From the NCBI RefSeq assembly GCF_020034665.1, contig NZ_JAIQDI010000001.1:3720001-3784000 (forward strand): a stretch of DNA of 64,000 nt, in the 5' to 3' direction. This stretch comes from Niabella beijingensis. GTDB taxonomy: Bacteria; Bacteroidota; Bacteroidia; Chitinophagales; Chitinophagaceae. Shown one piece after another: positions 55,899-64,000 of the stretch. Below the pieces are notes generated by a model. It was not told where the DNA came from, did no database searches, and was given only the letters and a program-made list of their open reading frames with translations. Made by a program: the position numbers and the translations under genes. How positions within the stretch are numbered: position 1 is the first letter of the stretch; every line of letters begins with the position of its first letter.

Positions 55899-56170
55899 CG
55901 CGAAGCAGCACTAAGATGATTTTGTTCTTTGTGTTTCTTGGTGCCTTCCTGTCTTCGTGGTTTACAGCGGTGCTGGTATTTGCCACAAAGGCACAAAGGC
56001 GCGAAGCAGCACTAAGGTGATTTTATTCTTCGTGTTTCTTAGTGCCTTCCTGTCTTCGTGGTTTACAGCGGTGCTGGTGTTTGCCACAAAGGTACAAAGG
56101 CGCGCAGCAGCACTAAGGTGATTTTATTCTTTGTGTTTATTGGTGCCTTCCTGTCTTTGTGGCTCGTTTT
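55899..56170. repeat. 101-bp tandem repeat, about 2.7 copies
   Basis: Copies start at 55899, 56000 and 56101, each beginning CGCG(A/C)AGCAGCACTAAG; the third is cut after about 70 bp. Each unit contains GCACTAAG and, in copy 2, CTTAGTGC as inverted arms, plus CACAAAGG words related to the 16636-16852 repeat. It is intergenic and may fold. Confidence 0.8.
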
Positions 56171-56199
56171 TCCCGTAGCTACGATCGCTTTGTGGGTAG

Positions 56200-56359
56200 C
56201 GCGTCATGTTGCTGGCTATAACTACTACCCCAATTTTAATATAAATCCTATAGAAAAATGGGTGGAAGCCTTGGACGAAATCAAAGATTAAACGCGGAAT
56301 TGTTGAAAGTAAAAGATGAGCAGATCAGGTTGCTGCAAAGTTTAGTGGAAAAGAAATAA
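56200..56359 (+). pseudogene. 3' remnant of a putative HTH regulator with C-terminal coiled coil
   Basis: One frame reads NFNINPIEKWVEALDEIK and stops at 56289. The +1 frame continues RLNAELLKVKDEQIRLLQ and SLVEKK to a stop at 56357. Joined by restoring one A in the AAA run at 56283-56285, they form a continuous helix of the kind found at the C-terminus of Bacteroidota XRE-type regulators. The 5' part is missing and replaced by the tandem repeat. The regulator assignment is inference. Confidence 0.45.
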
Positions 56360-56510: not shown

Positions 56511-56605
56511 AAATAAAAAGGTTGACTTGTTATTCAAATCAACCTTTTGAGAAAGCAATTCACAACGCTCCAAATAAATATTTGAATTAATTTGAGGTTG
56601 AAAAA
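56511..56605 (-). ncRNA. crRNA-like RNA with half repeat and own terminator, candidate autorepressor guide
   Basis: On the minus strand the order is: promoter-like boxes (56611-56640), a spacer-like stretch (56567-about 56605), GTTGTGAATTGCTTTC (56551-56566), identical to the first 16 nt of the crRNA-strand repeat, and an intrinsic terminator. The terminator stem pairs AAAAGGTTGA with TCAACCTTTT (plus 56516-56525 and 56539-56548) and ends in five U. Only the tracrRNA-pairing part of the repeat is kept. The 12 nt next to the half repeat match the promoter region upstream of cas9 at 56718-56729 exactly, and the rest does not. This predicts Cas9 binding without cutting. The reading is inference from sequence only. 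Confidence 0.55.
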
Positions 56606-56683
56606 AGTTACAAACAATAAAGCACCCTTGGGAGAAACAATAGGTAGGGTTTGGACGCCTACCCCAAAAATTTGCAACTTTTT
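56602..56683. other. structured element between crRNA-like unit and cas9 promoter
   Basis: AAAAAGTTACAAA (56602-56614) pairs with TTTGCAACTTTTT (56671-56683) with one mismatch, enclosing a hairpin GGTAGG/CCTACC (56643-56648 and 56658-56663). Both strands end the outer helix in a T-run, so it could terminate transcripts either way. On the plus strand it would form the tail of an RNA carrying the 56551-56566 anti-repeat, an alternative second tracrRNA. Confidence 0.5.
56611..56640 (-). promoter_or_regulatory. candidate promoter of the crRNA-like RNA
   Basis: On the minus strand TTG (56638-56640), 18 nt, then TATTGTTTG (56611-56619), a -7 box with one extra base between TA and TTTG. The start would fall near 56605, giving a spacer portion of about 38 nt. 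Confidence 0.4.
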
Positions 56684-56721
56684 GTCTGTTTGCAGTATAA
56701 AGATAATAAAAATTTTTTTTA

Positions 56722-56752
56722 TTTGGAGCAAGTCCTATTTTTTGTAATTTTG
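56722..56752 (+). promoter_or_regulatory. promoter upstream of cas9
   Basis: TTTG (56722-56725), 19 nt, TAATTTTG (56745-56752): a perfect Bacteroidota promoter in box sequence and spacing. The start would be near 56757, giving a leader of about 280 nt that contains the complement of the tracrRNA. The -33 box lies inside the 12-nt match (56718-56729) to the crRNA-like RNA. Confidence 0.75.
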
Positions 56753-56800: not shown

Positions 56801-56878
56801 AAAAAGGCTCCACGGAGTACGCAGAGCTAAGAAATTCTTCGGCTTATAGCCTTATTGTGAATTGTCTTTCAAAAACGA
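56801..56878 (-). ncRNA. tracrRNA
   Basis: On the minus strand: ATTCG and GAAAG-A-CAATTCACAAT (anti-repeat, 56854-56881) can pair with the crRNA-strand repeat over 16 positions with one bulged A and a terminal G-U, then an internal loop and a further 5-bp CGAAU/AUUCG stem. Next come AAGGCTATAAGCC (56841-56853), the AAGG nexus hairpin seen in type II-C tracrRNAs, a small AAGA/TCTT hairpin, and a terminator with stem GCTCTGCG/CGTGGAGC followed by five U (56801-56827). The position upstream of cas9 and the opposite strand are normal for type II-C. Length is about 78 nt. Confidence 0.82.
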
Positions 56879-57040: not shown

Positions 57041-60000
57041 ATGGGCAAAATTCTGGGACTAGACCTTGGCACGAATAGTATTGGATGGTCTATTAGAGAT
57101 ACACAGTTGCCGGGAAACCAAACTGAGAAAGTTGGGGTTATTACTTTTAATAAAGGGGTTGGTAATAGCAAAACCGGAGAATATTCTTATGCAGCAGAGC
57201 GTACTAAAAAACGCTCTACTAGACGTTTATATCAGTCTCGGAAATATAGATTATGGGCTACGCTTGAAGTTTTAATAGCTGAAGGATATTGCCCTTTGTC
57301 GTTGGAAGGATTAAATAAATGGAGGCATTACAATAAAGAGGAAGCTCGTGAAAATAAAAATGGAGGTAGGGTTTATCCTAAAGAAGAAGTGCTTTTTGAG
57401 CGATGGATAAAAATGGATTTTAATGAAGATGGCTTGCCCGATTTTAAAAGCCCTTATCAGCTAAGAAGAGTTTTAACAGAAAAGGAATTTGATTTCAACC
57501 AGGAGGCTGAACGTTATAAATTAGGAAGAGCGCTATATCATATTGCACAACGCAGAGGATTTAAGAGTAGTAGAAAAGGTAGTGATGATATAAAAGAAAG
57601 TGTAGATGGGGCTGATATTGATTTACAATATTCAGAAAAGAAAAAGAACAAAGAGATAATTGCCCAATTTGAAAAATATCCACAAGCAAAAACCATTGGT
57701 GCCTTGTTCGCCTATTTGGAAGATGATGGGATTCGTATTCGCGAAAATATGGCACAGTATGCCATACGTGAAAATTATAAGGAAGAAATCAACCAAATCT
57801 TTAAAATCCAGAATCTTTCTTTTGCCAGCCTGTTATACAAAGGCCTGGTAGAAACCGGAAAAAATAAAAACGATGGTGCTATTTTTTACAAACGCCCATT
57901 GCGTTCTCAAAAAGGTTTGATTGGACTATGTACTTTGGAACAGGAAACACGAATTGATCCCAAGACAAAAAAATCTTTCCAGGTTGGCAAGTATCGTGCT
58001 CCAATTAGTCATCCAAGCTTTGAATTATTCAGAGCCTGGCAATTTTTAAATAATATAAAGTTTAAAGAGGAGAACAATAAAAACAGTACTTGGCAGCCAT
58101 TGGGTTTGGAGTTGAAAAAAGAAATTCTCGAAGAGAAATTTTTCAGAAAATCTAAAGCATATTTTCCTTTTTCGGAAATAGTAGATATAATAAAAAAGAA
58201 AGGCCTCAGATGGGTATTAAATTATAAACCCAAGCAAACTGTAACCGGTTGCCCGGTTTCGGCAAGATTGAAAGATATTTTTGGTGATGATTATCTCAAT
58301 GTAAAGATTGACAAATTGCCATCACCTAAACAAAAGAAAAACTATTATGATATCTATGATATTTGGCATGTTCTATTTTCATTTGAAGACCAAGAGTTTG
58401 TTGCAGCGTTTGCATCAGAAAAACTGAAATTAGATGAAGAGAAGGCAAAACAATTTGTATTTGCCTGGAATGCAATGCCTGTGGGTTATGGAATGTTAAG
58501 CATTAACGCTATTGAAAAAATCAACCGTTTCTTGTTTAAAGGGATACAATACACAGAAGCTGTATTACTGGCTAATTTGCCGAGTTTAGTGGGCGAGGAT
58601 ATTTGGATTGAGAACGAAGCTACATTTTTGCAGAACATTGATGATATCATCAGAGAAAACAGAAGCGAAAAGCATATTATCCAAATCATTAATAGCTTAG
58701 TAGCAAAGTATAAAAGCCTAGACCAAAAGTTCGGCTATAAAGATGATGCTTATGCTTTAGATGGTAGTGATGTACAGGATATAACAGATGCTATCTTGGA
58801 ACACTATGGAGAGAGTGTTTGGCTGTCAAAAGAAAAAGCAGAAGCAGATAGGATTTTCTCCACTGTTAAAGATTGTTACCAGGCATTTTTCAAAACCATA
58901 GGGCTTGAACGTGTAAATCTTGATGGAGAAAGACATTTCTTAGTTTCTTCAAATGGGAAGAATTATTACAAAGCAGATTCTGGTTTTTACAAACAACCAA
59001 AACTTAAAGATACTTTAGCTGCATACTCTGTTAAGGTTTTGAAAGTTGATATTTCTAAGCTGAAAAAAATTTATCATGCATCAGATATCAGTATATATCC
59101 ACCTGCAATGCCTGATGAAAATGGTGAAATAAAAATGGGTAGTCCCCAAACTGGTTCATTTAAGAACCCTATGGCAATGCGTACATTACAGGAATTGAAA
59201 AAATTACTGAATTATCTGATAGAAACGAATCAGGTTGACTCAGATGCCCGCGTTGTTGTAGAAGTAGCCCGTCAACTAAACGATGCCAATAAACGTTGGG
59301 CGATTGAGGCCTGGCAGCGGCAAAGAGAGGCTGAGAATATGGAATTTGCTACTGCGATAGATGAACTAGTCAAACAAGAAGGAGCCGAGGCAAACAGCAA
59401 GAGTGAAGCGGATATTGACAAAATGCGTCTTTGGTATGAGCAGAACGGGGAAGAGTCTGTTCCCGAAATTTCCGAAACAAAAAAAGAGATTAAAGGCATT
59501 CGTTGGACAGAAAATAAAAAACAATCGTATAAGGATATTACAACAAAGAAGACTGCAATCGAAAAATATCGCCTGTGGCGCGAGCAAAATTGTATTTGCA
59601 TTTATACGGGAAAGCCAATCGGTGTAAGCGATTTATTTAATACCAATATAATAGATTTTGAGCACACTTTGCCGCGTAGTAAATCTTTTGATAACTCTTT
59701 AGCTAATAAAACGGTAGCTTTTATGGATTTCAACCGAACCATAAAAAAGAACAAAATCCCTTCTCAGTTATCTAAAGAGCAGTACGAATTAGTTCTGAAA
59801 AATATTAAGCTTTGGGAAGAGAAAATTGAGCGTATCAAACAACAAATAGATTTCTGGCAAACGAAATCAAAAAAGGCAGCTGATAAACAATGGAAAGATG
59901 ATGCTATCAGGCAAAAGCATCTTTGGAAGATGGAGTTGGAATATTGGAGTAGTAAAGTAGAACGATTTAAAATACAGGAGATTACTTCCGGGTTTAAAAA

Positions 60001-61375
60001 TAGCCAGTTGATAGATACTCAGCTGATTTCTAAATATGCACTACATTATCTGAAAACTTTCTTTGAAAAAGTAGATGTGCAGAAAGGAGAAGTAACGGCA
60101 ATTTTCAGGAAAATTTATGCTATTCAACCGCAGAATTTTGATGAGAAAAAAGACCGAAGTAAACATTCTCATCACGCAAAAGACGCAACAGTATTGACGC
60201 TGATCCCGCAAGCTGCAAAAAGGGAAGAAATTCTGAAAGAATATTTTGAAACTTTAGAAAATGGTTTAAAATTCCAAACTATAAAGCCGTATGCTACATT
60301 TAATGTAAACTCAATTTTTGAAATTGACGACAAGGTGCTCATCAACAGTTTGAATAACATTCAATTTCTATCGAAGGCCAAAAGGAAAGTTCGCAAAAGA
60401 GGAAAAGTGCAATTAATTGAAGGGACTAACAAAGAGAAAATTGCTACTGGAGATAGCGTTCGTGGGCAGTTACATCAGGAAACATTTTACGGTGCTATTA
60501 AGCCTGCCAAATTGGATGAAGCCGGTAAAATGCAGAAAGATGAAAATGGTAATTTTATTCAGGAGGATAAGCTAAGGTTTACTGTTCGCGTTCAATTTCA
60601 GTATAAGGCTAAACCTGATGTTCCGGGCTTTAAGACCTGGGAGGAAATTGAAAAACAGGTAGTAGATGAAGGTTTAAAAAGGCAGATAAAACAACAAATA
60701 GATAATGTGGGTGGGGTGAAAGAAGCTTTCGATGAAGGGATTTATATGTTTGATAAGAAGGGGAATAAAGTTAATAAAATCCGGCATATACGTGTATGGG
60801 CAAGCGTGTCTGAACCATTGCCGGTTAAGAAACATACTTATCTTTCTTCAAAAGACTACAAGCAGCACTATTATGCAGCTAATGCAACCAATAGCTATTT
60901 TGCATTGTATGAAGACAAGGAGAGAACAAAAAAAGACTTTGATTTCAGAAACCTAATGCAAGTCGCTCAGTCTTTGTCAGTTGAAAATATTGAAAGTGAA
61001 AAAGATTTGTTTACACCATTCATTACTATCAAAAAAGGAAAGACAGAAAAGCAGTTAGAGTTAAAATATATCCTTAATCCCGGAGCAAGAATTATCTTTT
61101 TAAAAGAAAATGAAACTAAAAATGAATTGAACGAGGCTGATTTTTTCAAGCGATTGTATATATATACGAACTTCGAGAAAAATGGGAGTTCTGCGAGGCT
61201 TAATTTTAGATTCCACATGGAGGCTCGTAGTAAAATTGAAGAATCGTATGTTGAATCTGAAGTAGATTGGGAAAATCCTAAGCCAACATTACGATTCGGC
61301 TATGCGAAATATGATTTTTTAGTTGAAGGGTACGATTTCATTATAGCGATGGACGGTACGATTAAACTAAAGTAA
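57041..61375 (+). CDS. cas9: type II-C CRISPR-associated endonuclease Cas9
   Basis: 1444 aa, within the size range of large Bacteroidota II-C Cas9. RuvC-I has Asp8 in ILGLDLGTNSIGW. An arginine-rich bridge helix lies at about 51-80 (AAERTKKRSTRRLYQSRKYR). RuvC-II has Glu741 in VVVEVARQLN. The HNH domain has Asp872, His875 (FEHTLPRS) and Asn898 (DFNRTIKKN). RuvC-III has His1045 and Asp1048 (HSHHAKDATVL). All catalytic residues are intact, so a working nuclease is expected. The gene is far more AT-rich than cas1, which begins one base after its stop. No csn2 or cas4 is present, hence II-C. Confidence 0.97.
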   Translation: MGKILGLDLGTNSIGWSIRDTQLPGNQTEKVGVITFNKGVGNSKTGEYSYAAERTKKRSTRRLYQSRKYRLWATLEVLIAEGYCPLSLEGLNKWRHYNKEEARENKNGGRVYPKEEVLFERWIKMDFNEDGLPDFKSPYQLRRVLTEKEFDFNQEAERYKLGRALYHIAQRRGFKSSRKGSDDIKESVDGADIDLQYSEKKKNKEIIAQFEKYPQAKTIGALFAYLEDDGIRIRENMAQYAIRENYKEEINQIFKIQNLSFASLLYKGLVETGKNKNDGAIFYKRPLRSQKGLIGLCTLEQETRIDPKTKKSFQVGKYRAPISHPSFELFRAWQFLNNIKFKEENNKNSTWQPLGLELKKEILEEKFFRKSKAYFPFSEIVDIIKKKGLRWVLNYKPKQTVTGCPVSARLKDIFGDDYLNVKIDKLPSPKQKKNYYDIYDIWHVLFSFEDQEFVAAFASEKLKLDEEKAKQFVFAWNAMPVGYGMLSINAIEKINRFLFKGIQYTEAVLLANLPSLVGEDIWIENEATFLQNIDDIIRENRSEKHIIQIINSLVAKYKSLDQKFGYKDDAYALDGSDVQDITDAILEHYGESVWLSKEKAEADRIFSTVKDCYQAFFKTIGLERVNLDGERHFLVSSNGKNYYKADSGFYKQPKLKDTLAAYSVKVLKVDISKLKKIYHASDISIYPPAMPDENGEIKMGSPQTGSFKNPMAMRTLQELKKLLNYLIETNQVDSDARVVVEVARQLNDANKRWAIEAWQRQREAENMEFATAIDELVKQEGAEANSKSEADIDKMRLWYEQNGEESVPEISETKKEIKGIRWTENKKQSYKDITTKKTAIEKYRLWREQNCICIYTGKPIGVSDLFNTNIIDFEHTLPRSKSFDNSLANKTVAFMDFNRTIKKNKIPSQLSKEQYELVLKNIKLWEEKIERIKQQIDFWQTKSKKAADKQWKDDAIRQKHLWKMELEYWSSKVERFKIQEITSGFKNSQLIDTQLISKYALHYLKTFFEKVDVQKGEVTAIFRKIYAIQPQNFDEKKDRSKHSHHAKDATVLTLIPQAAKREEILKEYFETLENGLKFQTIKPYATFNVNSIFEIDDKVLINSLNNIQFLSKAKRKVRKRGKVQLIEGTNKEKIATGDSVRGQLHQETFYGAIKPAKLDEAGKMQKDENGNFIQEDKLRFTVRVQFQYKAKPDVPGFKTWEEIEKQVVDEGLKRQIKQQIDNVGGVKEAFDEGIYMFDKKGNKVNKIRHIRVWASVSEPLPVKKHTYLSSKDYKQHYYAANATNSYFALYEDKERTKKDFDFRNLMQVAQSLSVENIESEKDLFTPFITIKKGKTEKQLELKYILNPGARIIFLKENETKNELNEADFFKRLYIYTNFEKNGSSARLNFRFHMEARSKIEESYVESEVDWENPKPTLRFGYAKYDFLVEGYDFIIAMDGTIKLK

Positions 61376-61376
61376 T

Positions 61377-62626
<1,250 letters not shown>

Positions 62627-62772: not shown

Positions 62773-64000
62773 GTTGTCAAAGACCAAAGGTAATTCGAAA
62801 ATTGAAAGCAATTCACAACCCATCCTGATAAGCAGCAACAGGTTGTATAGTTGTCAAAGACCAAAGGTAATTCGAAAATTGAAAGCAATTCACAACTATG
62901 CAAGACTTTATGAAGCGCTTGCGTTAGTTGTCAAAGACCAAAGGTAATTCGAAAATTGAAAGCAATTCACAACAGATACCATGTTGGGGAACCAGTGGCC
63001 GAAGTTGTCAAAGACCAAAGGTAATTCGAAAATTGAAAGCAATTCACAACTGTTTGCGCCGCCTGGACTGAATACGCGGGTTGTCAAAGACCAAAGGTAA
63101 TTCGAAAATTGAAAGCAATTCACAACCCAATTACCAAAGCTATCACAAAAAGGAAAGTTGTCAAAGACCAAAGGTAATTCGAAAATTGAAAGCAATTCAC
63201 AACACCTACACGAAACAATTGCTTTCAACGATGTTGTCAAAGACCAAAGGTAATTCGAAAATTGAAAGCAATTCACAACCTTTGGCCGGTACACCTACAA
63301 AGAAACGGAGTTGTCAAAGACCAAAGGTAATTCGAAAATTGAAAGCAATTCACAACTACTATCTTCAGTGAAGACATTATGAACAAGTTGTCAAAGACCA
63401 AAGGTAATTCGAAAATTGAAAGCAATTCACAACTGCGCGGCCCCCGGACCCCCCGCGGGTGTAGTTGTCAAAGACCAAAGGTAATTCGAAAATTGAAAGC
63501 AATTCACAACCCTAATGTCTGGATTTGATGAAAGAAAAGGGTTGTCAAAGACCAAAGGTAATTCGAAAATTGAAAGCAATTCACAACAGTAGCCTATTTG
63601 GACAAAAAAGATGTAGGGTTGTCAAAGACCAAAGGTAATTCGAAAATTGAAAGCAATTCACAACTAGACAGGAATATTCCTCAAAAAATTAAAGTTGTCA
63701 AAGACCAAAGGTAATTCGAAAATTGAAAGCAATTCACAACTAAAATTTGTCACCTGGGTTATTTTTAGCGTTGTCAAAGACCAAAGGTAATTCGAAAATT
63801 GAAAGCAATTCACAACGGAAGACGCTGGATTTATCGAAATAAGATTGTTGTCAAAGACCAAAGGTAATTCGAAAATTGAAAGCAATTCACAACACAGGCC
63901 AAACGGTTGTTAAGAATCAACAAGTTGTCAAAGACCAAAGGTAATTCGAAAATTGAAAGCAATTCACAACTCTAGCTGGCAAAGGAACTGGTGTTGCTAC
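62773..64000 (-). CRISPR. type II-C CRISPR array, 16 repeats seen, continues past window edge
   Basis: Sixteen repeats of 47 bp, all identical by eye, at 62773, 62850, 62927, 63004, 63080, 63157, 63233, 63310, 63387, 63464, 63541, 63618, 63694, 63770, 63847 and 63924. Spacers are 30 nt except 29 nt at numbers 4, 6, 12 and 13; the 16th fills 63971-64000. The crRNA strand is minus, because the tracrRNA pairs with the half starting GTTGTGAATTGCTTTC. On that strand each repeat has a perfect -7 box TACCTTTG at repeat positions 28-35. The leader end, if any, is beyond the window. Spacers show no obvious match inside the window. Confidence 0.98.

Follow-up and report, generated by a model that had tools for sequence, protein, structure and literature searches.

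A candidate stand-alone autorepressor guide upstream of cas9 in a type II-C CRISPR-Cas locus of Niabella beijingensis

The accessible parts of published reports describe several RNAs, encoded outside CRISPR arrays, that resemble the element studied here. In Streptococcus pyogenes (type II-A), tracr-L represses Pcas by means of an 11-nt match adjoining a PAM, and cleavage appears to be prevented (PMC8616872, PMC11417352). A designed crRNA with 11 nt matching Pcas also gave low reporter levels (PMC11417352). In types I and V-A, autoregulation involves CreR, a separate crRNA-like RNA partly complementary to the cas promoter; its repression is described as relieved by crRNA load or anti-CRISPRs (PMC12737573). 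The scaRNA of Francisella novicida is separate from the tracrRNA, with which it pairs, and Cas9 binds without cutting (PMC8616872). A meningococcal type II-C scaRNA is reported to be a post-transcriptional regulator of efeO (PMC13431127). The noncanonical crRNAs of Campylobacter jejuni, also type II-C, arise outside the array; they pair with tracrRNA and are able to direct Cas9. They are fragments of cellular transcripts, and the accessible part of the report describes neither a dedicated gene nor a cas9 promoter target (PMC8224270). Racr and the solitary repeat units of phages are further repeat units found outside arrays (PMC10651486).

Here we analyse a 64,000-nt stretch of the Niabella beijingensis genome (the window). 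As with tracr-L, a non-array RNA is predicted whose short seed match (12 nt) lies in the proposed cas9 promoter; the PAM beside this match is a proposal drawn from relatives. Unlike tracr-L, which is one RNA, the guide and tracrRNA of the window are separate genes, the guide lying on the minus strand ~200 nt downstream of the tracrRNA. The one-RNA arrangement is absent from the window but found at two related loci, L174 and L194. The gene content between cas2 and the array also departs from that of tracr-L systems (II-A, with csn2). The likeness to CreR, judged by sequence, is a crRNA-like RNA gene outside the array with partial complementarity to the cas promoter. However, CreR works with Cascade or Cas12a and not with Cas9 and tracrRNA, and the window element has only half a repeat, plus a terminator. 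Francisella scaRNA is likewise a separate RNA able to pair with tracrRNA, here potentially over 16 bp, but scaRNA represses other genes, not cas9. The window element adjoins cas9 and has a guide, unlike the Racr units, which are viral CRISPR inhibitors. It also differs from ecrRNA, an extra repeat at the array end, since 6.2 kb separate it from the array. We found no II-C cas9 autorepressor guide in the part of the literature accessible to our searches. Hence, with tracr-L (II-A) and CreR (I, V-A) known before, partial-guide autorepression in a dual-RNA, stand-alone form in type II-C would appear to be new.

A half repeat, a putative guide and its matching site upstream of cas9

The window carries cas9 (57041–61375; TIGR01865, 351.6 bits, cut-off 100), a type II cas1 (61377–62285; TIGR03639, 306.3 bits, cut-off 120) and cas2 (62288–62626; TIGR01573, 78.5 bits, cut-off 24.5), all on the plus strand. 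These are followed by a minus strand array of 47-nt repeats (62773–64000) that runs past the window end and has 37 repeats in L203. The interval between cas2 and the array contains no ORF of at least 80 aa. Because the order is cas9-cas1-cas2-array, with no further ORF of this size in that interval, we call the system type II-C. Past the window end, the L203 array contains one spacer pair three times in succession and another spacer twice. Upstream of the CRISPR locus, at 55899–56201, a 101-nt repeat occurs in three tandem copies, of which the other two are 94% and 64% identical to the first. The tracrRNA, placed by sequence and folding at 56801–56875 of the minus strand with approximate ends, comprises an anti-repeat (56855–56870), a nexus and a terminator. 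It sits between the target and proposed promoter described below and cas9, with its terminator reaching ~56801.

The preliminary description of this DNA had pointed to an isolated half repeat upstream of cas9, 16 nt long and copied from the part that pairs with tracrRNA, and had called the terminator after it strong. Both features are borne out. The sequence GTTGTGAATTGCTTTC (56551–56566, minus strand) is identical, with 0 mismatches, to positions 1–16 of the array repeat. Folding it with the tracrRNA anti-repeat gives 16 pairs, one bulged base and −19.3 kcal/mol. Next on the minus strand is an intrinsic terminator hairpin (56516–56548) with a 14-bp stem, a T run at its end and a folding energy of −16.2 kcal/mol. 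A guide-like stretch precedes the half repeat, so that the order is guide, half repeat, then hairpin and T run. The 12-nt seed, TTTATTTGGAGC (56567–56578, minus strand), touches the half repeat. Its claimed identity to 56718–56729 of the plus strand was reproduced, as were the five mismatches within the next six bases. Only one of the eight positions beyond the seed pairs with the target. The PAM-distal guide is provisionally assigned to 56579–56598 of the minus strand (length estimated). The promoter of the guide RNA itself is weak by consensus (12/16), and an Rfam search returned nothing above thresholds. Between guide and target, at 56625–56690, there is a hairpin with a TTTGGA-like loop. 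A matching stretch is present in L185, L174 and L130 look alike by eye, and ARAGORN found no tRNA in the hairpin region.

The target (protospacer seed, 56718–56729, plus strand) overlaps a proposed cas9 promoter, TTTG-N19-TAATTTTG (56722–56752, plus strand). This promoter consists of TTTG at 56722–56725, the −33 box, which is covered by the 12-nt target, followed by 19 nt and TAATTTTG at 56745–56752. It had been called perfect, and it does match in full the consensus given for a Bacteroidota sigma factor in the accessible part of its source (PMC7366714). A score at least as high was obtained for 21 of 1020 random 81-nt upstream windows, and several relatives have a poor promoter consensus at the target. 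The 12-mer has three exact sites in the 6.6-Mb genome: the guide, the target and one distant site. The distant site has the flank GGGCTATG, which does not fit the proposed PAM. The window guide has the same sense as cas9 mRNA, and its target precedes the predicted transcription start. Hence, pairing with cas9 mRNA offers no explanation for the match in the window.

Matches, co-variation and flanking motifs in related loci

We retrieved 120 cas9 loci, almost all belonging to the family of the window; 118 had at least 500 nt upstream and were usable. Half repeats were sought from −600 to 0 with respect to cas9, allowing at most 3 mismatches in 16 to the repeat of the same locus. Copies continuing into the rest of the repeat, or preceded by the end of a tracrRNA nexus, were excluded. 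The choice was made by likeness to the repeat, regardless of the seed. This gave 18 solitary half repeats in 18 of the 118 loci. In 13 of the 18, the guide end matched DNA upstream of the same locus's cas9 over 10–13 nt. The preliminary description had proposed that orthologous loci keeping the half repeat but never the seed match would refute its reading; the match is in fact kept. Conversely, only 3 of 2927 array spacers matched the cas9 upstream DNA of their own locus, all at 10 nt and none longer (Fisher P = 2 × 10^-29). Among tracrRNA anti-repeats in the same region the figure was 1/98. Against the cas9 upstream DNA of other loci, 24 of 8717 spacer trials reached at least 10 nt and 1 of 8717 reached 12 nt. 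The latter, ~10^-4, agrees with the earlier estimate of 10^-4 or less for a chance 12-mer match. Thus, for the set, 13/18 against 3/2927 excludes coincidence; for the window alone, its probability is ~10^-4.

The five half repeats without a 10-nt match were those of L121 and L124 (0 each), L166 (9 nt), and L158 and L159 (8 nt each). L121, L124 and L166 resemble pieces of tracrRNA but stay in the count of 13/18. We left out 18 further rows of at least 10 nt as poor look-alikes with 5–9 mismatches to the half repeat. Those in L125, L141, L168, L154 and others are mostly array-repeat sequence. Also left out was L133, a tracrRNA anti-repeat with a 12-nt match.

For analysis of co-variation, the final guide set (n = 18) comprised the 15 half repeats remaining without L121, L124 and L166, plus L107 (14 nt), L174 (10 nt) and L155 (9 nt). 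These three were added by eye or with knowledge of the seed and are not among the 18 chosen blind. In the final set, 15 of 18 guides match their own locus at 10–14 nt; when guides were swapped onto other loci, 0 of 306 pairs reached 10 nt. Seeds vary from locus to locus. Since the seeds differ and most of them match their own locus, guide and promoter co-vary. The clearest case is the pair L164 and L183 (Cas9s 86% identical), where the seeds differ at two bases and the targets have changed in the same way at both. The Cas9s of the guide loci are 20–90% identical, and related loci are not independent (90% for L090/L093, 86% for L164/L183, 83% for L203/L185). Summed over 15 loci, the guide positions past the matched stretch, as far as position 20, agree with the target at 33 of 129, which is chance level. 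Such chance-level agreement beyond 10–14 nt is as expected if cutting is avoided.

The flank on the PAM side of the target follows the Cas9 tree. In the window this flank is AAGTCCTA (56730–56737, plus strand; proposed PAM NNGTCC), and the relative L185 has ATGTCCTC, which belongs to this class too. An NNGTYY flank is present in 5/5 chosen loci (L160, L164, L183, L203 and L185), and an NNRAAT flank in 7/8 loci of one Cas9 clade, L130 being the exception. For RAAT at flank positions 3–6, P is 2 × 10^-11, or 1 × 10^-6 corrected for the choice of motif. Like L130, L174 (NNCCCC) and L194 (NNAACC) fall outside both classes. At L158 and L155 (= L011), a short match bears the flank of the clade. This behaviour fits a PAM, and we propose the motifs as such; they were read from the same, partly related loci. 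Phage searches with the window array spacers yielded 5 records, in which the matches were short or weak. Spacers of L203, L164 and L137, searched against 294 genomes, hit their own three arrays and gave one short match in G283, a genome with no site within 5 mismatches of the spacer. Four spacer pieces of 21–22 nt gave 0 matches each to viral contigs. Thus, none of these searches yielded a protospacer that would confirm the motifs.

Distribution and arrangement of the guides

Solitary guides are patchily distributed: their presence changes at least 12 times over a tree of 112 Cas9s. Inspection of L184/L205, a relative with a Cas9 79% identical, revealed no solitary guide. At that locus (L032, 1260–1470), two adjacent tracrRNA-like genes with different nexus types lie upstream of cas9. 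We examined 61 of 63 named loci, omitting L239 and L250, which are without a cas9 start. Carriers were 2 of the 61, L204 (Terrimonas sp. NS-102) and L218 (Chitinophagaceae bacterium UBA2791), which correspond to L185 and L174; an L210 anti-repeat with a 10-nt match was left out. Outside these families, among 77 additional regions from families or orders of Bacteroidia, two carriers were counted: L334 (11-nt match, flank AGGTTCGC) and L350 (10-nt match, flank AGGAATGT). By judgement we omitted L355 (two tracrRNA-like copies) and L375 (repeated sequence, 4 mismatches), which also have matches of at least 10 nt.

Transcription of most guides leads away from cas9. The window, L185, L137, L142 and others have a divergent crRNA-like gene. 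The half repeat of L174 and L194 continues directly into an anti-repeat on the same, minus strand, roughly −160 to −300 before cas9. Hence, guide and tracrRNA can form a single folded RNA, as in tracr-L, which would make these loci candidates for a type II-C natural single guide. Guides that share the strand of cas9 occur 41–57 nt before it in L090, L093 and L109. They also occur in L155, L158 and L159, where a hairpin follows the guide and the short match is further upstream. Just upstream of the guide, between target and guide and on the guide strand, ARAGORN placed a tRNA-Ile in L158 and a tRNA-like gene of unassigned type in L109; tRNA processing could set the 5′ end of these guides.

In 18/18 loci of the final set, and in L334 and L350, the target occupies the strand opposite to that of the guide. 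Targeting by Cas9 does not demand this. One possible reason is that direct repeats would be prone to deletion.

Proposed autorepression and alternative readings

From the parts and comparisons above, we consider it very probable that the window element is a stand-alone, crRNA-like Cas9 autorepressor guide of a type II-C system. The half repeat would pair with the ordinary tracrRNA and the pair would load Cas9. The 12-nt seed would direct Cas9 to the promoter of its own gene, at the −33 region. As the PAM-distal guide does not match, Cas9 should bind without cutting, holding down cas9 transcription; cas1 and cas2, behind cas9, would probably be repressed too. By analogy with CreR, array crRNAs or anti-CRISPRs may relieve this repression. 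Anti-CRISPR-triggered Cas9 expression was reportedly described by Workman in 2024. From the described systems we infer, by analogy, RNA production, Cas9 loading and repression, whereas the sequence itself shows the parts, their pairing potential, the seed match, its co-variation with the promoter and a flank that follows the Cas9 tree. We grade the autorepressor guide put forward in the preliminary description as supported, short of proven, by the seed match kept in 13/18 relatives and by the contrast between own (15/18) and swapped (0/306) guides.

Isolated, degenerate repeats are common around arrays, and the accessible part of one report describes an extra repeat in type II-C arrays (PMC12080349). 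The window half repeat might be such an extraneous repeat (ecrRNA), or a relic of an old array, with a coincidental seed match. We regard this as extremely unlikely, given that the copy is exact, far from the array and directly followed by a terminator, and given the excess of own-locus matches over spacers and the ~10^-4 chance for the window itself. The guide RNA might instead act on another target, as Francisella scaRNA does, with the promoter match secondary. Although our scan for exact 12-nt sites found one further site in the genome, this site lacks the proposed PAM. Moreover, the match upstream of cas9 recurs with different seeds, and action elsewhere is very unlikely.

The opposite orientation of guide and target at all loci of the final set, and at L334 and L350, means that the two copies are inverted repeats. 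They could thus be operator sites of a protein regulator, or form an RNA hairpin, and not involve a Cas9 guide. However, the match is bounded exactly, by the half repeat at one end and by a flank specific to the clade at its far end, and the matched sequence itself is not conserved between loci. This makes the inverted-repeat explanation most improbable, and we favour an autorepressor guide.

A wider proposal, for and against which we see the case as evenly balanced, is that II-C Cas9s of the window's family and some other Bacteroidia have a rapidly re-targeting autorepressor. The autorepressor would take three or more forms: a crRNA-like gene transcribed divergently, a single guide fused to tracrRNA, and a guide in the cas9 leader, where the cas9 transcript could deliver its own repressing guide. 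Guide and promoter would co-evolve, with the match kept at 10–14 nt, and each pair would reveal the PAM of its Cas9. If true, these loci would be a natural source of guides for CRISPRi and would allow PAMs to be predicted for Cas9s that are uncharacterised. Repression by partial guides of 10–14 nt would be a general solution with several layouts. It would explain a low Cas9 level in these bacteria, and cas9 could respond to crRNA load and anti-CRISPRs.
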